A stretch of 33,470 nucleotides of DNA, from assembly GCF_000615445.1 (NCBI RefSeq), contig NZ_BALY01000020.1, positions 1-33,470 on the forward strand, read 5' to 3'. Source of the DNA: Lactobacillus hamsteri DSM 5661 = JCM 6256 (GTDB taxonomy: Bacteria > Bacillota > Bacilli > Lactobacillales > Lactobacillaceae). Made by a program: the position numbers and the translations under genes. The notes beneath the pieces are model-generated. The model searched no databases and had not been told where the DNA came from. It saw only the letters and a program-made list of their open reading frames with translations. Shown here one piece after another: positions 18,341-31,756 of the stretch (positions are counted from its first letter, which is position 1; every line of letters begins with the position of its first letter).

Positions 18341-20314
18341 GTTTCCACATGCGTGGAGAATACATCACAGCGTCATAAAGATGCAATTAATCAATAGGAT
18401 CACCTCCACACACGTGGAGAATACCGTTTTGCGGTCTGAAGCTAAATAAATCGATAAGGATCACCTCCACATGCGTGGAGAATACGTAGCGCCATCCTTG
18501 AGGATCCCCCTAATTTGGGATCACCTCCACATGCGTGGAGAATACGATCTGCGTTATTTTAGATCGTGACAATGATAAGGATCACCTCCACATGCGTGGA
18601 GAATACTTAATCATTTTCGCTTATACAGTATTTTATAAAGGATCACCTCCACATGCGTGGAGAATACACTTAAAACAAAGAAATATTGAATTGCAACAAA
18701 GGATCACCTCCACATGCGTGGAGAATACCAGATTTATTCCGCCAATTACTATTAATGATAAGGATCACCTCCACATGCGTGGAGAATACTATATTGGAAC
18801 AATTTCTGTAAAAAACCACCGAGGATCACCTCCACATGCGTGGAGAATACTGAAGGCACTAGAAGTCGTGTCAGTTCTTCAGGGGATCACCTCCACATGC
18901 GTGGAGAATACCTGGCTATCTGGTGAAACTGGCGATACATACGAGGATCACCTCCACATGCGTGGAGAATACCCACCGAGTCAGCAAACAAGGCTTTAGG
19001 TTTCAGGATCACCTCCACATGCGTGGAGAATACCAATATCGTTTGCATTCGTGAGAATCAGCAGTAGGATCACCTCCACATGCGTGGAGAATACCTAGTG
19101 GCTCAAAAGAAGCTCAAATGAAAGACGGGATCACCTCCACATGCGTGGAGAATACTAGATCTCCATCGTATGTTTCATTTGAAGTCAAGGATCACCTCCA
19201 CATGCGTGGAGAATACTTATCTAATGTTTGGTCTTCATATAGCATTACAGGATCACCTCCACATGCGTGGAGAATACAACCAATGATTCTAAAGTTTCGT
19301 GGTCTGCTTAGGATCACCTCCACATGCGTGGAGAATACTTTTTACCTCCCTCATTGACTTCACTTAGTATAGGATCACCTCCACATGCGTGGAGAATACT
19401 TATTTTCCTTTTTAGCCATTTCTTTCTCCCTAGGATCACCTCCACATGCGTGGAGAATACAGGAAAAGAATGGTATGACAAATACAATTATTAGGATCAC
19501 CTCCACATGCGTGGAGAATACCAGTAATTTAACTGTTGAAGTACGATAGCTTCAGGATCACCTCCACATGCGTGGAGAATACTATTTTATGATCTAAGGC
19601 ATAATTCATTAGCCAGGATCACCTCCACATGCGTGGAGAATACATCTGGTCAAAACTCCAGTTGGGGCAATCGAAAGGATCACCTCCACATGCGTGGAGA
19701 ATACAATTTGTAACTATTCAATCTGGTGCCATTACTAGGATCACCTCCACATGCGTGGAGAATACGCTTGGTGAAGTTCATTAATGTGGCTTTAAACAGG
19801 ATCACCTCCACATGCGTGGAGAATACTGCATGACGCACAAGAATGGCTAGACGGCATCAGGATCACCTCCACATGCGTGGAGAATACTTTACCAGATCTG
19901 CACTTGCAGGCATTAAATCAGGATCACCTCCACATGCGTGGAGAATACTTAAGATCAGTTTGAGTTTTACTGGTCAACTTAGGATCACCTCCACATGCGT
20001 GGAGAATACTTCTCGTTTTGATACTCCGGCTTCTTTTGCATGGGATCACCTCCACATGCGTGGAGAATACAGGGTGATACCAACTTGAATTTTGATCGCA
20101 ATAGGATCACCTCCACATGCGTGGAGAATACCTCGGTTCCTGTCGGAACTAGGGGGTAGTTCCAGGATCACCTCCACATGCGTGGAGAATACCCTCCTTA
20201 CACAATTTAACTAGGTTTCTATACAGGATCACCTCCACATGCGTGGAGAATACCAGAAATTGCTAAAGACGTACCAGCTGAAGATAGGATCACCTCCACA
20301 TGCGTGGAGAATAC
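18336..20314 (-). CRISPR. Type I-E CRISPR array 1 (33 repeats, 32 spacers)
   Basis: Twenty-eight-base repeats (on the plus strand GGATCACC, then the hairpin TCCACATGCGTGGA, then GAATAC) at a 61-base period, with 33-base spacers except one of 32 bases (18486-18517). The repeat is read as crRNA on the minus strand, where it ends in the handle GTGATCC. Leader-proximal repeats (right side) are identical. At the far left, the repeat at 18397 has a changed loop (ACAC), and the last, at 18336-18363, has lost its first eight bases, as expected for the trailer end. Several spacers, reversed, contain a Shine-Dalgarno sequence and start codon, as expected for phage genes. No spacer matches this window well. 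Confidence 0.98.
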
Positions 20315-20343: not shown

Positions 20344-22169
<1,826 letters not shown>

Positions 22170-22826
22170 TTAATCCTTTATCGGAATAACTGTCAGCAAG
22201 CCCATACCAAATGCTTTTTCTCTACCAATTCCATGCACTAAACTGTTTTTAAATTTATCTAAATCAGTTATCTGCAATATTCCTTCAAAAGTTACTCGAC
22301 TTAACTTTACATTACGACCATTTTTCCGACGCAAAATTGGCCAGTCACGACTAGTAATTTTAAAATTAAGTTCACCCGTTTGATCTTGGACAATTCTAAA
22401 ACCATGCTTTTCTACACGTTCAGTTAACCATTTCATTTGTTGATCAACAGTGATATGCGGAACTACTCGTGATTTTCCTGTTTGTTTTGAATATATCTTA
22501 TAGGTAGGATTAGCAGTTAAACGAAAACGGAGTTTTTCTCCCATATTTAATCTATTTAAATATGAATCATAAGCTTTACTGTCGGCCGTGGTTTTTACGC
22601 CATTTTTTTCAAGTTTAGTTAAATCAGGCTTATCTTCGCTTAATAGCAACAAATATTTCTTGTTTCCAAGATCATCAATTCGCCATAAATGTCGTAAGCG
22701 TTGATGTGTCGCAATTTCTGTAGGAAAACTTTGCTCTACCCAATTATGGTAAGCTCCCAAATGTGTTAAATCTCTTATTTTTTGACGATTTTTTGTGTCA
22801 ATTTCAACTCGTGATAAATAATACAT
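22170..22826 (-). CDS. cas6e: Cas6e crRNA endoribonuclease
   Basis: A 218-residue Cas6e (Cse3) that cuts the repeat at the 3' base of its hairpin and stays bound to it. The glycine-rich C-terminal loop GIGREKAFGMGLLTV is clear. I chose the ATG at 22826 (MYYLSRVEID) because a perfect AGGAGG lies 5 bases upstream. A longer in-frame start at 22850 would lie inside cas5e and lacks a ribosome site. It would also be expected to process the crRNA-like element at 27039-27139. Confidence 0.93.
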   Translation of the reverse strand: MYYLSRVEIDTKNRQKIRDLTHLGAYHNWVEQSFPTEIATHQRLRHLWRIDDLGNKKYLLLLSEDKPDLTKLEKNGVKTTADSKAYDSYLNRLNMGEKLRFRLTANPTYKIYSKQTGKSRVVPHITVDQQMKWLTERVEKHGFRIVQDQTGELNFKITSRDWPILRRKNGRNVKLSRVTFEGILQITDLDKFKNSLVHGIGREKAFGMGLLTVIPIKD

Positions 22827-22834
22827 TTGTCCTC

Positions 22835-23548
22835 CTAAAGACAAGACCAAATATCATGATCTGTAAATGCGTCTTTAAATTCAGAATTTTCAAGCTCAAC
22901 TTGTTTACATGCAATCTGTCGATACATATAATATCTATCTTTTTCATCAAAAGAACCAATCACATCTTTAACTGACGAAGTGGGATTATCTGGCAACATA
23001 TCCGCATCAGCAACAATATCTGTAGCAAACTTATTTTTCTTATACCTTTTTTTAAACCATTCAGAAGCCTGCCAAGAAATTTTTTCTAAAACTTCTACAG
23101 GAGATGCATTTTCAAAAATTTTCATTTTTAAAACACCTGCTGGTGGATTAGATCTTCTTCCTAAATATAATTGAAATTTAGGTTTTCTTAGCGCTTCATA
23201 AATTTCATCAATCCATGTATCATTATCACTTCCAAGTGCAACCACAAATACTGCATCTTGCAAATATTGGCGATAGGTTAGTTTTCTTGCTGTTTTACTA
23301 GCAGATTTATGATATTCAACTGTTTGAAAATCTGTCATTTGCGTTCCGGTTTGATCAATACGAACTGCAAACTTCAAATTATTCAATTCAGAGATGCGCT
23401 TATCATCTCTTCTATATCCCAAGGCTGCCGCAATCATTCCCAAAACGGCACTTTTAGAAGGATACGCACCACTGGTTCTTTGGTTAAAAGTTGCTTGATT
23501 ACCGTATGATTGGAGTGGCGCTGTAAGCCTAATTGTTATTGTCTTCAT
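22835..23548 (-). CDS. cas5e: Cas5e Cascade subunit
   Basis: A 237-residue Cas5e (CasD), a RAMP protein that caps the crRNA 5' handle in Cascade. Typical features are the start ITIRLTAPLQSYG, the block YPSKSAVLGMIAAALGY and PAGVLKMKIF. It overlaps the cas7e end by 20 bp and stops 8 bp before the cas6e start, with the cas6e ribosome site next to its stop codon. Confidence 0.94.
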   Translation of the reverse strand: MKTITIRLTAPLQSYGNQATFNQRTSGAYPSKSAVLGMIAAALGYRRDDKRISELNNLKFAVRIDQTGTQMTDFQTVEYHKSASKTARKLTYRQYLQDAVFVVALGSDNDTWIDEIYEALRKPKFQLYLGRRSNPPAGVLKMKIFENASPVEVLEKISWQASEWFKKRYKKNKFATDIVADADMLPDNPTSSVKDVIGSFDEKDRYYMYRQIACKQVELENSEFKDAFTDHDIWSCL

Positions 23549-24629
23549 CAGCTAACCTCTGACTTACTACTTCAGAAATTTTACTCAACATATCTTTAAT
23601 ATTTTCGGCTTTATTAGAAATATCAGTGTCTTTATTAGTCAATACAATAGATAAAACAGGTTCATCAACAAAACCTTCTGCATCAGCATTTTCTTTTTCT
23701 AATCTTTTAATTGAAGTATCTACGTAACCATTTTCAGTATTAACAGGATTTTCAAATGCGGAAACAAGGTTAACAGGTGTATCTTCTCTTACATTTACTA
23801 ACACATATTGAGGTAAAGTCTTATTTGCAAAGGTGTTTTCCTTACCTGTTGGCATGGTCAAAATAAAATCTTTAATAAACAATTCCATACCTTTAAGCGT
23901 TAAATCCTTGCCTAAGTTATGTTCTAATTCATTCAAATTAATATTGGCATAACGATATAAAGTTGATGAGTTATATTCAATAGTTCCGATCATTGCTGAA
24001 CCAGCGTTGTCTTCTGAGCGGTTATCATCAACAGCAGTGTAGTAATCAAATTCTGGAATAATTTCATGAGTTGAGATTGAATGAGCCACTTGACAAGATG
24101 CATCAACATTTAATTCCGGATTATCAGCTACCATTCTTCCGAATAAAGCCAAATCTAATGATTGATCGCTCATCAAAAGATCCTTAATTGCCTTTTTAGC
24201 TTCTTTGTCAGTAACATCATTTTCTGTTGCATATTTTGCGATCTTTTCGATCTCACCACGACTAACTAAAAGCAATGCCCCAGTTAAGATTTCACCAGTT
24301 TTTTTGTCTTTTGTGGCTTTAATTCCTACAGCTTTAAGAATGCTTTGCGCCTTATCAATAGCTGCATCATCATCTAAAATGTCATCAAGCTTTTTCAATT
24401 CATCAGCAAGAAGATATACGACCTTTTTAGTTCTGTAACTATCAAGCCATTCTTCATCTTCTGATTTAAATGCTAATCTCACTGCACGTTTCCAACTTTG
24501 TGATGAAACTCGAGATCTAGTCACGCCACCATAAACTGCTGTTTTAGGGCTACCTGTATCATCACGGTTAATATTGGATGATGGTACTGTTTGCAAAACA
24601 TTGATATCTACGTACAAATTTTTCTTCAT
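23529..24629 (-). CDS. cas7e: Cas7e Cascade backbone subunit
   Basis: A 366-residue Cas7e (Cse4/CasC) that polymerises along the crRNA spacer. Hallmarks are the N-terminal VDINVLQTVPSSNINRDDTG, the block GGVTRSRVSSQSWKRAVR and LFGRMVADN in the middle. Length and motifs are typical. It lies 1 bp after the cse2 stop. The ribosome site (AGGAGAA) lies inside the end of cse2. Confidence 0.95.
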   Translation of the reverse strand: MKKNLYVDINVLQTVPSSNINRDDTGSPKTAVYGGVTRSRVSSQSWKRAVRLAFKSEDEEWLDSYRTKKVVYLLADELKKLDDILDDDAAIDKAQSILKAVGIKATKDKKTGEILTGALLLVSRGEIEKIAKYATENDVTDKEAKKAIKDLLMSDQSLDLALFGRMVADNPELNVDASCQVAHSISTHEIIPEFDYYTAVDDNRSEDNAGSAMIGTIEYNSSTLYRYANINLNELEHNLGKDLTLKGMELFIKDFILTMPTGKENTFANKTLPQYVLVNVREDTPVNLVSAFENPVNTENGYVDTSIKRLEKENADAEGFVDEPVLSIVLTNKDTDISNKAENIKDMLSKISEVVSQRLADEDNNN

Positions 24630-24630
24630 T

Positions 24631-25230
24631 TTATTTTTCTCCTTTATTTTCTAATGTGTAAACATTCCAGTAATAGTCGCGACCCCAATTTAATGCAACT
24701 TTTCTTGCACTTTCAGGATTTGATTGAAACCAGTATAAATCTTGTGCTAATTTTCCAAAATCAACTTGTAAATTTAATTTCTTACCTTTAAGTATTTGCA
24801 CAAGGTGAACCAATGAATTAATTACGGCCGCAGTATTTGTACTTGCAAGTATTGCACTAACTCGGCGATCAAGTGCTGCTTTAGCATCACTATCTTTATC
24901 ACCAATTTGTTTTAAAGCGTTAAAGAAAGTAACACCTTTTTGATTTTCTCCACTCGCAGCATAAACTAATTCTTCTGTTCCTTGTTGAAAAATCGCATAA
25001 CAATGCAAAGTTGTATAGATAGCCTTTTCAGCATGAGTTGGTTGACCATCCCTGCTTAATACTATGCTTTCATCAACACCATCGAAAAATAACGGCCAAA
25101 CTTTTTCAGCCCGTTTATCGGTAATATCGGTTGTTGATCTTAAAGCTGCTAAGGTAGCTTTATCTAAAGAGCCATTATTATATAGTCGCTTAATAATTTT
25201 GACAGTTGCTTTATTAATATTCGATACCAT
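24631..25230 (-). CDS. cse2: Cse2 (Cas11e) Cascade small subunit
   Basis: A 199-residue helical Cse2/CasB, present as two copies in Cascade, where it stabilises the displaced DNA strand. The family block ALRSTTD, then VWPLFF and a HCYAIFQQG stretch, is visible, followed by the WGRDYYW end. It starts 2 bp after the cas8e stop. Confidence 0.93.
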   Translation of the reverse strand: MVSNINKATVKIIKRLYNNGSLDKATLAALRSTTDITDKRAEKVWPLFFDGVDESIVLSRDGQPTHAEKAIYTTLHCYAIFQQGTEELVYAASGENQKGVTFFNALKQIGDKDSDAKAALDRRVSAILASTNTAAVINSLVHLVQILKGKKLNLQVDFGKLAQDLYWFQSNPESARKVALNWGRDYYWNVYTLENKGEK

Positions 25231-25232
25231 TG

Positions 25233-26942
25233 TTATTTTTTCTTAGCTCCTTTCCCATCTAACTTAATTGCTACATTTCGGCGGAATTTATTGTAAATCG
25301 TAAAAATATTGCTGGAATCTTTTCCACGAATTTCTAGTGAAGTTGCAGATCTGAAAGTATCCTGTGCTTGTCTAAATGCTATTTGATTTAAAACATCTTG
25401 CCATTGACTGATTTTCTCTCCGCTTTCATCTTGGTTGGTCAATCCAGCTAACCAATTATAAAAGGGACGATTAAGCGCATCATAAAATTGTTCTGTCAAT
25501 TTATTAGCGTAAGAATTATCTTTAATACTTCGCAATTCAGAAATTTCTTTTATAAACCAATAGTAATATGTACCGACTTGTTGAGTCGTTTCGATAACAC
25601 CCTCAATTATAGCGGGCCAACGTTGTGCTTCATCAGAATTACTATCAAAAAGAACTTCCGCATTAATTTTCATATTGTCTACAACTTCTGCATATGGAGA
25701 TTGAGATGTAGCATTACCATCACTAATTAAAGCAATTGAACATAGATTTACTTGCATTGTTTTAGAAATTGCTTCATTAACTTTTAAAAATTGAAGCCAA
25801 TCAACAATTCCAGGTTGATAATCATTATCTTCACTAACAGAAATATAATTACCAAAGTTACGCCACATTGCAACGGAGAGATTATTTTTAGATTTGGTAG
25901 CAGGTCTGATACCATCTTTATTTGCTCTCCATGTTGTCATCGGTTCAATATAATTAGCAGGCATATCTTCATATTCGAATTTTGGTAAACCAGCACTAAA
26001 GATTGTTGGCTGATCTTCTTGCCATTCAATATGAAGCATTCGTGACCAATCAGTGTATAATTCCGCTAAATTATCAGGGAAAATTCCTTTAACTCTATTT
26101 TTAAGAAACTCAGAAGTATCATCATATTCCCAAACTGGCTTTTGATTTTTATATTCAAAATCTTCACTATTTTGTGGAACTAAAACCAAATTAAGCATTA
26201 AAGTTTCAAAAAGATTTTTACCTTTAATAAAAACCGGATTCAATCCATATAGCCAACCTGATGAAACAGAAAACTTTTCTTTACTTAGATACTTGGTTTT
26301 ATCAGTCACCCCTGTGAAATTCTGATAAGTAATTAACCATCTTGCAAGCTCCGCATAATTAACTCTGTTTTTATATTCATCAGATTTTGGAGAAAACAAA
26401 GAAGGGGAATTGTTACTTTCACTGATAACTCTATTTATCTGCTTGACGGAAACCGTACCTTTTCCTTTTGCTACTCTCTTCTTTGCTTCAACATTTTCAT
26501 CATAAACTGACTGAGTAACTTGATAAAATGGCGTATCCCCGAAAAGATCAAAACGACTTTTATACTTTTCTAAATACTCAATTACGATTTTAGAAAAAGT
26601 CTTTTCTTGATAAAGATCTTTCCAAGTATTCAATAAATCATCTGCTATTTCATCTTGATCCTCATCCTCGTCAACTTCTTCAGACAATTGATAATTGTCA
26701 TCCAATTCTAACCAATCATACGGTTCATCTTGAGCATTAAATCTAGAATAAACAGTAGTCAAAATTGCTAACAAAAATCGCAAAATTGCTAAATCTTGTG
26801 CTTTCATATCTCCGGCTAAGCTTTCGTATTGCTGTGAATAATTAAACAACTCAACAAGCGAAACTGTTTTTTCCGTATGAGATTCATTGTCAAAAACTTT
26901 TAACCATGGATCAGTTACCAAATTAAAACTTTTTTCTTGCAT
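25233..26942 (-). CDS. cas8e: Cas8e (Cse1) PAM-recognising Cascade large subunit
   Basis: A 569-residue Cse1/CasA that reads the PAM and recruits Cas3. The start (FNLVTDPWLKV) and the internal FGDTPFYQV block are characteristic. A strong AGGAGG (26948-26953) sits five bases before the ATG. A promoter (TTGTAA, 17 bp, TATTAT) is at 26991-27019, so this gene begins a separate operon from cas3. The first transcribed bases match the pseudo-spacer of the crRNA-like RNA encoded just upstream, so it may be repressed by the very complex it encodes. Confidence 0.95.
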   Translation of the reverse strand: MQEKSFNLVTDPWLKVFDNESHTEKTVSLVELFNYSQQYESLAGDMKAQDLAILRFLLAILTTVYSRFNAQDEPYDWLELDDNYQLSEEVDEDEDQDEIADDLLNTWKDLYQEKTFSKIVIEYLEKYKSRFDLFGDTPFYQVTQSVYDENVEAKKRVAKGKGTVSVKQINRVISESNNSPSLFSPKSDEYKNRVNYAELARWLITYQNFTGVTDKTKYLSKEKFSVSSGWLYGLNPVFIKGKNLFETLMLNLVLVPQNSEDFEYKNQKPVWEYDDTSEFLKNRVKGIFPDNLAELYTDWSRMLHIEWQEDQPTIFSAGLPKFEYEDMPANYIEPMTTWRANKDGIRPATKSKNNLSVAMWRNFGNYISVSEDNDYQPGIVDWLQFLKVNEAISKTMQVNLCSIALISDGNATSQSPYAEVVDNMKINAEVLFDSNSDEAQRWPAIIEGVIETTQQVGTYYYWFIKEISELRSIKDNSYANKLTEQFYDALNRPFYNWLAGLTNQDESGEKISQWQDVLNQIAFRQAQDTFRSATSLEIRGKDSSNIFTIYNKFRRNVAIKLDGKGAKKK

Positions 26943-26959
26943 TCGATCCTCCTCGCTTT

Positions 26960-26981
26960 AATTTAATCATATTCTTTATAG
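26960..26981 (-). promoter_or_regulatory. Candidate target of the crRNA-like RNA at the cas8e start of transcription
   Basis: On the minus strand this 22-base site matches the pseudo-spacer at 27089-27110 at positions 2-11, 14-18, 20 and 21 (17 of 22); mismatches are at 1, 12, 13, 19 and 22. The three bases before it (26984-26982) are GAA, an AA-type PAM of the kind reported for streptococcal and lactobacillus I-E systems. It starts about 3 bases after the predicted transcription start. Confidence 0.65.
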
Positions 26982-26990
26982 TTCATATAA

Positions 26991-27019
26991 ATAATACTTC
27001 TAAAGAAACTAATTTACAA
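26991..27019 (-). promoter_or_regulatory. Promoter of the Cascade operon (cas8e onward)
   Basis: TTGTAA (27019-27014), a 17-base gap, and TATTAT (26996-26991). The start of transcription is expected near 26984, giving a leader of about 42 bases with the pseudo-spacer match inside it. Confidence 0.75.
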
Positions 27020-27038
27020 GAGTTATTCTTTAAAAATT

Positions 27039-27139
27039 AAAAAGGATGTCTGTTGACATCCTTTTCCCCCACATATTGTAGGGATTACTATATAATCTGA
27101 TTCTTTATATGGATCACCCTCATATACTATGAGGATTAC
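27039..27139 (-). ncRNA. CreR-like crRNA mini-array (pseudo-repeat, pseudo-spacer, pseudo-repeat, terminator)
   Basis: On the minus strand: pseudo-repeat 1 (27139-27111, 29 nt) has GTAAT, then the 7-bp hairpin CCTCATA/TATGAGG with a 3-nt loop, then GTGATCC, which is identical to the crRNA 5' handle of both arrays. A 22-nt pseudo-spacer (27110-27089) follows. Pseudo-repeat 2 (27088-27066) begins GTAATCC and keeps a 7-bp hairpin (CCCTACA/TGTGGGG, one G-U) but has lost the handle. A perfect terminator follows (GGATGTC/GACATCC, 27061-27044, then five T). Stems differ from the array repeats by paired changes, so structure is kept. The expected product is one Cas6e-processed guide with a short spacer aimed at the cas8e promoter region. 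This matches the architecture of cas-regulating RNAs (CreR, CreA) known from other type I systems. Not a normal array: only one spacer, too short, and not next to a leader. Confidence 0.72.
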
Positions 27140-27182
27140 TCAGTAATATAATACCTTAACTTTCTATTATTTCATAACTCAA
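27118..27182. repeat. 65-bp direct repeat, left copy (flank of the fic cassette)
   Basis: Identical at 64 of 65 positions to 28121-28185; the difference is at 27169 (A versus T). The copy carries the former last codons of cas3, the promoter of the crRNA-like RNA and most of pseudo-repeat 1. The similarity ends at the fic side. It looks like the scar of a cassette insertion that regenerated its target. Confidence 0.92.
27148..27177 (-). promoter_or_regulatory. Promoter of the crRNA-like RNA
   Basis: TTATGA (27177-27172), 18 bases, TATTAT (27153-27148). The start of transcription would fall at about 27141-27139, at the first base of pseudo-repeat 1. This promoter sequence is the duplicated 3' end of cas3. 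Confidence 0.6.
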
Positions 27183-27185
27183 CCT

Positions 27186-27219
27186 AAAAAAGATACTAAC
27201 ATCTTTTGAAATTAGTATC
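27186..27219 (-). terminator. Terminator overlapping the fic stop codon
   Basis: GATACTAA (27192-27199) pairs with TTAGTATC (27212-27219); six T follow on the minus strand. The fic stop codon (TAG) lies inside the stem. Confidence 0.85.
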
Positions 27220-27993
27220 CTTTTGGGCATCTTCCTTATTTTTTTCATTTAATTGTAAAATCTTTATACGATTTTCTAGTGTTTGCTCCATATATTCTCC
27301 AACTAAATTTTCAAATTTAGTTGGATCACCACTCTGTTGAGATTCTAATAAGACTTCCATATATTCATTTCGTGAATCTTTGTCTGGCATGATATTTATA
27401 ACGGGATATCCATTTTCAGTAAGAGCTAAACTCATTAACAACCTAGCTGTTCTACCGTTTCCATCTCTAAATGGATGAATAGTTACAAATTTATAATGCA
27501 AATCAGCAGCATACTTTACTGGGTGAAGTTTTTCTTGTGCTACTGTTGCCCATTTAACTAATTCATCCATTTCTGGTCGAATATCAAACGGTTCGGAATA
27601 AGGGTTGTAGTTTGTTTTTGCAGGATGAACTTCAAGCGTTCTGTATTCTCCTCCCCATTCGGGATGAGTTTTTGCTAAGGCCAATCTGTTTAAATCTCTA
27701 ATAACAGTTTGAGTCAATGGCTGTTTATGACTGGCCAAATCAAGCATATAATCATAAGCTTCATTTAAATCAATAGTAGATAGTACATCGCCTATTGATT
27801 CACCATGAATAGTTATTCCCTTATCAATTATTGCTTCTGTTTCAAATTTATCAATTTTGCTACCTTCAATGGCGTTTGAAGACCAGATATGTTCAATACG
27901 AATATTTTTGTTTAAAGCCCTAATTTGATCCTTATCTAAGGGGCGATATTTTTGCATTTCTGCCTTTAATTGATTTAATTTTTCAATATTCAT
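27196..27993 (-). CDS. fic: Fic-domain protein with N-terminal inhibitory motif (class II)
   Basis: A 265-residue Fic protein, which transfers AMP (or another nucleotide part) to a target protein. The catalytic motif is complete: IHPFRDGNGRTAR, with H173 and the anion-binding GNGR. An inhibitory helix motif SNAIEG (39-44, glutamate E43) fits the (S/T)xxxE(G/N) rule for class II Fic proteins that hold themselves in check. The C-terminus is a charged helix. It lies between cas3 and cas8e, which is not a normal place for fic, with its own promoter (28032-28062), ribosome site (AAGGAAG) and terminator, and flanked by direct repeats. Intact and probably functional. Its link to CRISPR is unknown; it may be cargo or a guard. 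Confidence 0.92.
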   Translation of the reverse strand: MNIEKLNQLKAEMQKYRPLDKDQIRALNKNIRIEHIWSSNAIEGSKIDKFETEAIIDKGITIHGESIGDVLSTIDLNEAYDYMLDLASHKQPLTQTVIRDLNRLALAKTHPEWGGEYRTLEVHPAKTNYNPYSEPFDIRPEMDELVKWATVAQEKLHPVKYAADLHYKFVTIHPFRDGNGRTARLLMSLALTENGYPVINIMPDKDSRNEYMEVLLESQQSGDPTKFENLVGEYMEQTLENRIKILQLNEKNKEDAQKDTNFKRC

Positions 27994-28031
27994 ATTTTTC
28001 TTCCTTTTAGCATAATAGCTCTATATAACCC

Positions 28032-28062
28032 ATTATAATTTAAAAATCTAATAAGTTTACAA
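28032..28062 (-). promoter_or_regulatory. Candidate fic promoter
   Basis: TTGTAA (28062-28057) and TATAAT (28037-28032), separated by 19 bases, slightly longer than ideal, about 40 bases before the fic start. Confidence 0.5.
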
Positions 28063-28120
28063 GTTCCGATACTTTTTTCATGACCGTCATACTATATCTC
28101 ATAAAAACATCTTCTACTTT

Positions 28121-28185
28121 CCTCATATACTATGAGGATTACTCAGTAATATAATACCTTAACTTTCTATTTTTTCATAACTCAA
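28121..28185. repeat. 65-bp direct repeat, right copy (true cas3 3' end)
   Basis: Partner of 27118-27182. It holds the real last codons and stop of cas3 (stop at 28159-28161), the same -10 (28151-28156), and a half pseudo-repeat whose hairpin is present but whose GTGATCC handle is missing. Confidence 0.92.
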
Positions 28186-30951
28186 TCCTAATTTTGATGA
28201 GTAATGCAAACGGTAACCATTAAAATCACAATTTAGTTTTTCATCTAATGGCAAAGCCAATGATCCTCTTAGCCAAACACTATTCGTCTGCCAATTAGGA
28301 TAATATTCACTAGTTATAGTTTCCAATTCTTTTATAGCTTGATCAATATCTTGAGTCACTGCATGCGGCAATCTTATCAATTGTTGAGCAATTATTTTAT
28401 CTCTTGAATCTTCTGAAAGGTCTCCAATATCTGTACCATCAAGCAAATAGTCATGATCATCAACATGCTTTAACAGAATAACTTCAATGCTTTCTTGTAT
28501 ATCTCTAACAGTAGCTTGTGCGCGATTTTCATCTTTATCTACATTAAGTTTGCCATTATCAAGCCAGCCATGGATATCTTTGAACTTATTTGGTCTAGCT
28601 GGAGGGGCAAGTTGAAATCCTTTTGCTTTAGCCTTTGCCTTTTTAGTATCAATTTCAAGAATATCTTTGGCATCCATAATATTTTCAACTTGATCATCAG
28701 TATCCGATGAATATACTTTTTGAACTAAATCAGAAATATCATCAGGCAAAACAATTGTCTCCGGTAAGAAGTGATCTGTTTTCATTAATAAATACTTTTG
28801 ATAAATATATTCATTTGCATCCCCATAATCACCATAGTCATTAATTCCCATCACATATAACCTTGGTGTTTTAAGGTTTTCTGGACGCTTAATCTTATGA
28901 CGATGCATCCGGCCGGCCCTTTGAAGAAGCAAGTCCATTGGTGCAATATCGGTATATAAAACATCAAAATCTATATCCAATGACTGTTCCAAAACCTGCG
29001 TACCAATTACGATCAGCTTTTCCGGTCTTTGACCATCTTTTCCAATCATACTTTGTAATTTTTCTTCAATCTTTGTTCTTTCATTAGCTAAAAATGCGGA
29101 ATGAAGAACCAAAATTCTCACATCAGAAGGCAAATTGGTACCGGCAATTCTTGCTAAAGCTTGTGCTCTTTTAACTGTATTGACGATTACACCAGCAACT
29201 CCACCGTCATTAATAGAAGAATTAATCCGATTTATTAGCTCTTCATTCTCAAAATTAATTCTTTTAACTTCTACTTTTGTGGTCTTCTGCTCAGTCTTAT
29301 CAAAATTATCAACCTGCTTTAAGTCATTGCCATCTAAAATACTTAGTAAAGGATAACTTTGCTTGTCTTTCCAGTCACCCGTCGCATTGAACTTCTTTTT
29401 GCCATATTTTCCCTTAGCATAAGCAGCTAAAAGTTCATTTCTTCTTTCAACAGGAAGCGTTGCGGATAAAGCAATAACAGGGACATGATAGGCACCAAGC
29501 CATTCAATTGCCTTTTTCAAATAGGAATTCATATAAACGTCGTAGGCATGAACTTCATCAATGACTACGATTTTTCCACTTAATCCTAAATGTCTTAAGG
29601 CTAAATGTTTCTGCTTGAGCGCCATGAACAGTAATTGATCGACTGTTCCAATGGTAAAATCGGTTAAGATTGATTTTTTACCAGAAAACCAACTATTAAC
29701 TACAACGGCACCGTCATCTTCATCGATAGCAACATTTTCAGCGTGAGGGATGCTCTCGTATTCTGAATTAAATTGAGCTTTGCCATGCATTAATTTAATA
29801 GGTAATTTTAATCCTTGATCTTTTGAAATATTACTTAACCATGTATCCACTCTGGAAAACATAGCATTAGCAGTAGCTTGTGTAGGTAAGCCGAAAAATA
29901 AACTATTTCTGCCCGTTTTAAAGGCTAATTGTTCTACTGCAGTTAAGGCAATTTCAGTCTTTCCAATACCCATTGGTGCTTCTACAATGATCATCCCTGG
30001 GTCATTCGCTTTATCAATAGTCTTTGTCATTTTTGCTTGAACCGCACGCGGACTGAAATGCCAACGTTTTTGATAATTTTGAGTACCATCAGTAATCAGA
30101 TCTGGTTCCCACTTATCGGTACTCTTCCAATTAATTATTGCATTTTCAAAACGTTGCTCAGAATTTACATCATTAGCACTCTGGCTCATCTTTATTAGCG
30201 GAAATAATGTTAACTTGCCATCATCTGTTTCAAGATATTCACTAGATGCTAACCAATCAGCCATAATTACTAAGCCTTCAATAATTACAGCTTGCGCTTG
30301 TGTAATTTTAGGCACATCCGACAAACTAGAAAAGTCACACAAATTTAAACCATAATCTATCAATTCGTCTTGCACATTATTCCAATTTTCTTGAGCTTTA
30401 GCTTTATAGTCAAGATTATTTTGAACATATTGAAGATAATTAAATTTCCAAACCGAATACTGTTTATCATAATCAAAGTTTTTCTTCACCGGCTTACCAT
30501 GGTGTCCACCAATAATTGCGCCAATACACTTATTAAGGCCACGCTTTTCTAGTATCACTTCACCAGCTATATTATGAGGCGATTCTTTGGCACTTACTGA
30601 AGCAAAATGGTCTAGATTATTAAAACCAGCTCTAATTAATCTTTCCAACAAATCCGTATCAAGATTTTCATCATGAATATAAGACCTTTTTGTTTGAAAA
30701 GCAGGAGTAGCCTTGCCAATATCATGAATATAACCCACGAATTTAACTAAGTTTTGAACTTCTTCTTCACTTTCAAAATTTTGACATAAGATATTGCGTT
30801 GTCCTTGATCTAGCCAGTGATTATAAAGCCAATTGATTACGTTTTTGGTATCGATAAGGTGAACGATTAGGGGCAACCATAGTTCTTCATGATCATCATT
30901 AATATTCTTTTTGCCCCAAAGATTTAATGCTTTTTCTGATAAATTGTACAT
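28159..30951 (-). CDS. cas3: Cas3 helicase-nuclease, type I-E
   Basis: A 930-residue Cas3 that degrades DNA marked by Cascade. The HD nuclease has FVGYIHDIGK (H76-D77) and a further metal-binding HH at 150-151. The superfamily 2 helicase has Walker A APMGIGKT (325-332), DEVH (465-468) and the later QRAGRMHRH motif VI. I chose the ATG at 30951 (MYNLSEKALN, ribosome site AAGGA). An in-frame extension to 31062 would start inside CRISPR array 2 and is not real. There is only a 37-bp gap to array 2 with no clear promoter or terminator, so cas3 may be read from the array 2 leader. The last 12 codons were duplicated by the fic insertion. Confidence 0.95.
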   Translation of the reverse strand: MYNLSEKALNLWGKKNINDDHEELWLPLIVHLIDTKNVINWLYNHWLDQGQRNILCQNFESEEEVQNLVKFVGYIHDIGKATPAFQTKRSYIHDENLDTDLLERLIRAGFNNLDHFASVSAKESPHNIAGEVILEKRGLNKCIGAIIGGHHGKPVKKNFDYDKQYSVWKFNYLQYVQNNLDYKAKAQENWNNVQDELIDYGLNLCDFSSLSDVPKITQAQAVIIEGLVIMADWLASSEYLETDDGKLTLFPLIKMSQSANDVNSEQRFENAIINWKSTDKWEPDLITDGTQNYQKRWHFSPRAVQAKMTKTIDKANDPGMIIVEAPMGIGKTEIALTAVEQLAFKTGRNSLFFGLPTQATANAMFSRVDTWLSNISKDQGLKLPIKLMHGKAQFNSEYESIPHAENVAIDEDDGAVVVNSWFSGKKSILTDFTIGTVDQLLFMALKQKHLALRHLGLSGKIVVIDEVHAYDVYMNSYLKKAIEWLGAYHVPVIALSATLPVERRNELLAAYAKGKYGKKKFNATGDWKDKQSYPLLSILDGNDLKQVDNFDKTEQKTTKVEVKRINFENEELINRINSSINDGGVAGVIVNTVKRAQALARIAGTNLPSDVRILVLHSAFLANERTKIEEKLQSMIGKDGQRPEKLIVIGTQVLEQSLDIDFDVLYTDIAPMDLLLQRAGRMHRHKIKRPENLKTPRLYVMGINDYGDYGDANEYIYQKYLLMKTDHFLPETIVLPDDISDLVQKVYSSDTDDQVENIMDAKDILEIDTKKAKAKAKGFQLAPPARPNKFKDIHGWLDNGKLNVDKDENRAQATVRDIQESIEVILLKHVDDHDYLLDGTDIGDLSEDSRDKIIAQQLIRLPHAVTQDIDQAIKELETITSEYYPNWQTNSVWLRGSLALPLDEKLNCDFNGYRLHYSSKLGLSYEKIES

Positions 30952-30988: not shown

Positions 30989-31693
30989 AATAAAGCTCCA
31001 CATGCGTGGAGAATACGTTGAATGAGCCTTTTTATAAGCTTCGGTGGCGGGATCACCTCCACTTGCGTGGAGAATACAAGCTTACTTACCAGTTTGGTGA
31101 TTTTGAAAGAGGATCACCTCCACTTGCGTGGAGAATACTTAGTGCTACTTTGTCTGCCACCACCAACATTAGGATCACCTCCACATCCGTGGAGAATACT
31201 TTTCATGGAATGACAGAACTTCATACCCACAAGGATCACCTCCACATCCGTGGAGAATACCAAGTTGGATTGATTATCACAAAGATGGATCAGGGATCAC
31301 CTCCACATCCGTGGAGAATACTCAATAGAAACTCCATTAAAACTCATATTACCTGGATCACCTCCACATCCGTGGAGAATACACATGTTCAAACCATTGT
31401 TTAAAAGCCAAATTAGGATCACCTCCACATCCGTGGAGAATACCAAAATTTATGACTTGTACTATCAAGCAGGCATGGATCACCTCCACATCCGTGGAGA
31501 ATACTTCGTCACGTTGATTGAGTTAAGCTTGCGCTTGCACTTGGGATCACCTCCACATCCGTGGAGAATACGACATCTAGCGCAATTCGTAGAGATACGA
31601 AGTTGGATCACCTCCACATCCGTGGAGAATACAGCCCTGGTACTATTGAAAATATTGCAAGTGCAGGATCACCTCCACATCCGTGGAGAATAC
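30989..31693 (-). CRISPR. Type I-E CRISPR array 2 (12 repeats, 11 spacers)
   Basis: Same 28-base repeat family as array 1. From the leader (right) nine repeats have the loop ATCC (CCACATCCGTGG), the next two have TTGC, and the final degenerate one (30989-31016) has ATGC and has lost its first eight bases. Only loop bases vary; stems and handle are constant. Spacers are 33 bases except 31505-31543, which is 39 and contains a tandem GCTTGC-GCTTGC. The transcript would run straight towards cas3. Confidence 0.97.
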
Positions 31694-31756
31694 ACTTAAC
31701 AAATCCTATTATACCAAGGTTCGTACTTTACGAAAATCACTTTTTCATTCAGTTTC
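31694..31756 (-). promoter_or_regulatory. Leader of array 2
   Basis: Sixty-three bases that align without gaps to the array 1 leader. A perfect TATAAT (minus strand, about 22 bases from the first repeat) sits in the shared GGTATAATAGGATT block. The far end shares GAAACTGAAT with the coding end of cas2. Confidence 0.75.

Follow-up and report, generated by a model that had tools for sequence, protein, structure and literature searches.

Between the cas3 and cas8e genes of a type I-E CRISPR-Cas locus, the 33,470-nt stretch of Lactobacillus DNA analysed here (the window) carries a minus-strand mini-array (27139-27039) in which two degenerate repeats flank a 22-nt pseudo-spacer, with a terminator after them. 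Its RNA is very likely loaded into Cascade and would direct that complex to a site upstream of cas8e, repressing the Cascade operon without cutting; we call the element CreR, after the cas-regulating RNAs (Liu et al. 2023, Cell Host Microbe 31:1481, cited in PMC12948488, PMC13131331 and PMC12737573). The first-pass annotation of this DNA had proposed a feedback switch on Cascade level, and guides of relatives that match their own targets, a six-base periodicity in these matches and co-variation of guide and target argue for this reading. Since such own-target guides occur in related species, the element is likely a thermostat by which the defence complex would turn down its own genes.

The mini-array and its cas locus

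The order on the minus strand is array 2, cas3, a Fic-domain gene, the mini-array, cas8e, cas11, cas7, cas5, cas6e, cas1, a cas2-exonuclease fusion and array 1. The first gene of the Cascade operon, cas8e (25233..26942, minus strand), matches Pfam CRISPR_Cse1 (3.5e-92) and is called Cas8e by PADLOC; cas11, cas7, cas5, cas6e, cas1 and the cas2-exonuclease fusion (20344..25230, minus strand) are all open frames; and cas3 (28159..30951, minus strand, its ATG start chosen by eye) has the Pfam Cas3 domains and is Cas3e in PADLOC. The Cascade genes linked to the mini-array are intact, in that cas8e, cas11, cas7, cas5, cas6e and cas3 are open and have family hits, and a cas8e search of the contigs of this genome found one locus. 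Array 1 (18344..20314) lies downstream of cas2 and array 2 (30996..31696) directly upstream of cas3, both on the minus strand and with approximate ends. A CreR was also sought upstream of the window's cas3; no ectopic handle is present there, and array 2 runs directly into cas3. The frame at 20344-21219 encodes a Cas2 protein fused to a DEDDh exonuclease domain.

The first repeat of the mini-array (PR1, 29 nt, 27111..27139, minus strand) has, by sequence and fold, a 7-bp stem and an intact handle, GTGATCC, at 27117-27111; its stem carries compensating changes relative to the array repeat at three of six pairs (compared by eye). It is followed by the 22-nt pseudo-spacer (27089..27110, minus strand), made up of one PAM-position base and a 21-nt guide, and by the second repeat (PR2, 27066..27088, minus strand), which has lost the handle and forms a 7-bp hairpin that includes one G-U pair. 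A predicted intrinsic terminator (27039..27066, minus strand), with a 12-pair stem and a T run, separates CreR from the cas8e promoter region. The first-pass annotation had described all of these parts and its account holds: its coordinates for the element are exact, as is the handle that it read in PR1, and the handle-less hairpin of PR2, the paired changes that set the stems apart from those of the array repeats (in PR1) and the terminator behind the mini-array are all seen. The promoter that it placed before the mini-array is also found, as ATGAAA-16-TATTAT (27148..27175, minus strand; 9/12 in a consensus scan), but it is weak, and promoter-like sites are no commoner in this region than in shuffled sequence (six in 26900-28260 by the same kind of scan, against a shuffle mean of 7.7); the predicted promoters of both CreR and cas8e are weak consensus matches. 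When the full CreR transcript is folded, the minimum-energy structure opens the PR1 stem and the centroid structure retains it.

CreR shares with an ordinary type I-E mini-array a handle and a stem of the kind used by Cas6e, but its repeats are unequal, its second handle is lost and its spacer is 22 rather than 33 nt long. The near-identical repeats and 33-nt spacers of an ordinary array (39 of the 40 spacers in the window arrays have that length) are not what is found between cas3 and cas8e; the element lies outside the arrays as a mini-CRISPR whose repeats are degenerate, as is described for CreRs.

The target upstream of cas8e

Where the guide begins can be read from the ordinary arrays. 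The first base of an array spacer is T or C in 949 of 983 cases in the set of loci (T 583, C 366) and in 37 of 40 in the window arrays (18344-20314 and 30996-31696), so this base is most simply derived from the PAM, which reads AAY, and guide position 1 is the base after it. The array period is 28+33 here; that of E. coli is 29+32. One array spacer (19400-19432) is identical to Lactobacillus phage CV244 over 33/33 nt, adjoining AAT, and phage phiMH1 (two records) has a weaker spacer match (28/31 aligned), adjoining GAT; this search covered most of array 1 and gave four records (CV244, phiMH1 twice, and R26.14), the PAM being read for CV244 and phiMH1. A cell-free test with the L. salivarius type I-E Cascade is described in which targeting AAT sites repressed a reporter, and the same paper also mentions AAY (PMC11288051).

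Numbered in this way, guide positions 1-21 match 17 of 21 bases at 26960..26980 on the minus strand; positions 1-10 are unbroken, and the mismatches are at 11, 12, 18 and 21. The site is preceded by AAC (26981..26983, minus strand), which fits the AAY PAM of the array spacers and the AAT beside the phage protospacer. The earlier reading of 17/22 at 26981-26960 after GAA is thereby corrected to 17/21 at 26980-26960 after AAC, while its 17 matching bases, its ten in a row and its AA-type PAM stand. The doubt it raised over a mismatch at position 1 falls away, because that base is PAM position 0 and pairing begins at the next base, with ten matches running. The cas8e ATG is 38 nt downstream of the target start. 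The predicted cas8e promoter, TTGTAA-17-TATTAT (26991..27019, minus strand, from the consensus scan), has a -10 hexamer that starts 16 nt ahead of the target, and identical hexamers with the same spacing are found upstream of cas8e in the related locus L151. The spacer thus partly matches, next to a PAM, the promoter region of its linked cas operon, this cas8e promoter being itself a prediction.

We scored matches over guide positions 1-17 without 6 and 12 (15 positions) and required a preceding AA; the masking of 6 and 12 was picked after a few loci had been read by eye, and the search and its controls were repeated without it (below). The window guide scores 14/15. Dinucleotide-shuffled guides equalled this in 2 of 20,000 trials when the 130 nt before cas8e were searched and in 1 of 20,000 when the search covered the whole gap, so that the shuffling test called for by the first-pass annotation places the match beyond chance; without the PAM rule the numbers are 3 of 3000 and 6 of 3000, respectively. 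The pattern AANTATAAAGAAT (AA, any base, and the ten-base seed) occurs twice in the 1.83-Mb genome, once at the target site, and a reversed control pattern is found three times. The window guide scores no higher than 11 in any of 32 regions from other loci, and among 38 other guides compared with the window gap two score 12 and none more. The 40 window spacers, compared with the window itself, gave four weak self-matches (15/18), none with the AA motif.

Guides and targets in related loci

cas8e is present in 75 of 397 genomes of the family, 24 of 75 of the genus, 4 of 26 in the genus of G347 and 1 of 16 in that of G156, and 94 cas8e loci were analysed (G312 is represented by L013; the short loci G054:C67 and G002:C55, in which cas3 and cas8e are coupled, were left out of the handle scan, and a cas8e piece on G476:C3 was also left out). 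The cas regions contain 41 ectopic handles, distributed over 33 of the 94 loci. Of the 41, 20 score at least 12/15 in their own region and 19 at least 13/15; the controls reach these scores in 14 and 2 of 1312 swapped combinations and in 6 and 0 of 1000 array-spacer tests, respectively. Some of the 21 of 41 handles without a target at 12 or more are chance handle-like sequences. With neither PAM rule nor masking, and at least 13/17 matches required, 22 of 41 guides have a hit in their own region; the swapped combinations give 93 hits in 1312 and the array spacers 26 in 1000. AAT or AAC precedes 18 of these 22 own hits, and AA precedes 15 of the 93 swapped ones. The 22 include two self-matches of a 65-nt duplication in the window (discussed below) and two hits without AA (L074 and L162), and for both of the latter loci the masked, PAM-required search finds an AA-preceded target. 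Matches of 17/17 are also seen in the unmasked controls, with four swapped pairs and two array spacers. The element could in principle be a decayed array remnant whose match upstream of cas8e arose by chance in AT-rich DNA; its repeats are indeed degenerate and its guide and target AT-rich, but the shuffle, swap and array-spacer controls, together with the PAM, the six-base periodicity and the co-variation in relatives, make this very improbable.

The mismatches of the 22 unmasked own hits are placed in a distinctive way, with 10 at position 6, 13 at position 12 and none at positions 1-5, 7, 8 and 13; in swapped hits of at least 12 they are even (92-154 per position) and show no 6/12 pattern. 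Among the 18 hits preceded by AA, every one matches at positions 1-5, 7, 8 and 13, nine match at position 6 and five at position 12; the similarity sets in with the base next to the PAM position and is lost beyond about position 17. Cascade is described as leaving every sixth base unpaired (PMC13122317); in E. coli it leaves positions 6 and 12 unpaired. Judging from these natural sequences, Cascade seems not to read positions 6 and 12, and regulatory pairing seems to weaken beyond about position 17. The window itself lacks the clean 6/12 pattern: its mismatches lie at 11, 12, 18 and 21, and position 11 should pair.

Within five clades, 25 of 28 differences between guides at readable positions have a counterpart in the target, as against only one of nine at positions 6 and 12, a count drawn from rows already selected for matching. 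The comparison of this gap across relatives that the first-pass annotation had suggested thus turns out in its favour: different guides match their own cas upstream regions next to AAY, and they differ in step with them. A single bacterial family provides some 20 natural pairs of guide and target, the guides keeping up with changes in their targets. The likeness of pseudo-spacer and cas8e upstream region might instead reflect copying, with no Cascade function, and local duplication is known in this locus (the 65-nt repeat); but similarity that in the relatives starts just after the PAM position and ends near position 17, mismatches at 6 and 12, and sister loci that alter guide and target jointly are hard to reconcile with copying, and we regard it as highly unlikely. 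Least credible of all is plain riboregulation, in which the RNA would pair with cas8e mRNA without Cascade: a small structured RNA made beside its target would suit it, but guide and cas8e mRNA run in the same sense, so the RNA cannot pair with that transcript, and 17 of the 18 AA-preceded hits are on the cas coding strand.

In 85 of the 94 loci cas3 and cas8e are coupled, with no more than 60 nt between them; four (the window, L113, L117 and L151) have a wider gap, and in five no cas3 was found on that strand. In each of the four with a wider gap, that gap contains both a mini-array and its target, which suggests that the thermostat follows the Cascade genes. Three of the four have a terminator-like hairpin between mini-array and cas8e (it is absent in L113). 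The cas8e tree, built by a quick method, joins the window and L151 as sisters (SH-aLRT 99), so these are not four independent events. L151 has the same order of genes and elements, the same predicted TTGTAA-17-TATTAT promoter, and a different guide that matches its own target 17/17; it differs from the window guide at six of the first 15 positions, and all six differences are mirrored in the target. Beyond its own two places in the window genome, a 296-nt region here has only short, weak matches, in 10 of 149 other genomes; the element is kept as a layout only, not as a sequence.

Some loci depart from this picture. In L057, where cas3 is divergent, a mini-array lies upstream of cas8e and its best AA-preceded match is 10/15, below the threshold, and the same is true of the best matches in L100 and L106. 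In L100, about 160 nt upstream of cas3, the best guide match (10 of the first 11 positions) is on the opposite strand, upstream of the locus's own mini-array, possibly a case of self-control. L113 has, besides the mini-array before cas8e, a second one upstream of cas3 (2986), with no clear seed target by eye. In L066, roughly 600-450 nt upstream of cas3, the guide has its match not beside cas3 but in front of a small reading frame whose product, judged by eye, resembles a helix-turn-helix protein; this is possibly an indirect layer of control.

The spacers of the 18 AA-preceded hits fall into two length groups, 19-23 nt (11 hits) and 32-34 nt (seven), with none between (the value for L117, 33, was read by eye, as its PR2 is too degenerate and the automatic value was wrong). 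We entertain, tentatively and with some doubt, the idea that lactobacilli keep a dedicated short-guide Cascade for self-control: the two guide lengths differ by some 11 nt, which is nearly two Cas7 steps, and the short class, which includes the window, might build a smaller Cascade that binds promoters and could not call Cas3, in which case the whole set would be a natural record of the positions that Cascade reads.

Proposed autorepression, known systems and the Fic gene

CreR would be transcribed from its weak predicted promoter (27175-27148), Cas6e would cut the RNA after the PR1 stem, and the product would be assembled into a Cascade that sits over the predicted cas8e start site, at about +5 to +25. 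With positions 6, 12 and 18 excluded, 16 of 18 readable positions of guide and target match, and 16 paired positions would presumably be enough for binding and too short to call Cas3. In E. coli, Cascade binding is reported with as few as 5 bp, and interference and priming are said to need more than 18 bp (PMC5904413); the window's pairing fits binding without cutting by these thresholds. The same source reports local gene expression unaffected by off-target Cascade binding, which counts against repression, and in a type I-B system shortened guides are reported to convert cutting to repression (PMC10551041). Were Cascade titrated away by crRNAs or anti-CRISPRs, cas8e would be released from repression.

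According to PMC13131331, CreRs mediate autorepression in types I-B, I-E and V-A via a partial promoter match, and PMC12737573 describes them for type I and V-A and as generally uncoupled from toxin genes. As type I-E is already among these, the proposed mechanism is not new in kind. The window element agrees with CreR, as described in the citing papers through which we compare it, in being an ectopic mini-CRISPR with a partial match to a cas promoter; it differs in lying between cas3 and cas8e and not before the whole operon, in its 21-nt guide, and in its place beside a Fic insertion. A literature search found no report of CreR in lactobacilli, which does not prove its absence. We file the element as a CreR by its layout and target, its processing and its repression of cas8e being predicted. 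Racr, a phage RNA anti-CRISPR, is likewise a solitary repeat mimic (PMC10651486), but it is described there as virus-borne and as an inhibitor of CRISPR-Cas, whereas the window element is in a host cas locus and has its target upstream of a cas gene. Lactobacillar type I-E systems have been used for genome editing, and control of their expression would matter for such uses.

The Fic-domain gene between cas3 and CreR (27196..27993, minus strand; Pfam Fic 2.7e-22) is also the PADLOC candidate PDC-S04 (1.6e-28), and in its product we take HPFRDGNGR to be the Fic motif and SSNAIEG to resemble an inhibitory motif. A 65-nt duplication, which the first-pass annotation of the element does not mention, flanks it: one copy (27118..27182, minus strand) takes in the CreR promoter and the greater part of PR1, and the other (28121..28185, minus strand), with one mismatch to the first, comprises the 3' end of cas3 as well as the CreR promoter and a PR1 stem lacking its handle. 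The Fic gene is thus bracketed by copies of these three elements (cas3 end, promoter and stem), and, as the copy before fic has no handle, no guide is expected from it.

Such an arrangement resembles CreTA/CrePA, which are described as having two degenerate repeats, a pseudo-spacer and Cascade as promoter repressor (PMC9458426), the repression being a prediction in our case. The mini-array RNA might accordingly be a CreA-type antitoxin that holds down the neighbouring Fic gene, with the cas8e match secondary. The Fic gene is directly upstream, its 5' side repeats the CreR promoter together with most of the PR1 stem, and Fic genes in G219 lie between CRISPR arrays behind degenerate repeats. On the other hand, the guide of a CreTA/CrePA system targets the linked toxin promoter, and here the guide, which matches the cas upstream region, has a best match of only 10/17 in the fic upstream region; none of 47 handle-derived window guides reaches 12/15 there (two reach 11), and L151 shares the CreR layout with no gene, Fic or other, between cas3 and CreR. 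We tried this candidate and found it unsupported, and we consider an antitoxin role quite improbable. For CreR as a regulator of Cascade the Fic gene is not needed; the guide leaves the upstream region of this adjoining gene unmatched.

G219 offers a second link between Fic genes and CRISPR repeats: at L185:2461-8722 two Fic relatives, one of them in two pieces, lie between blocks of CRISPR array, each behind degenerate repeats.
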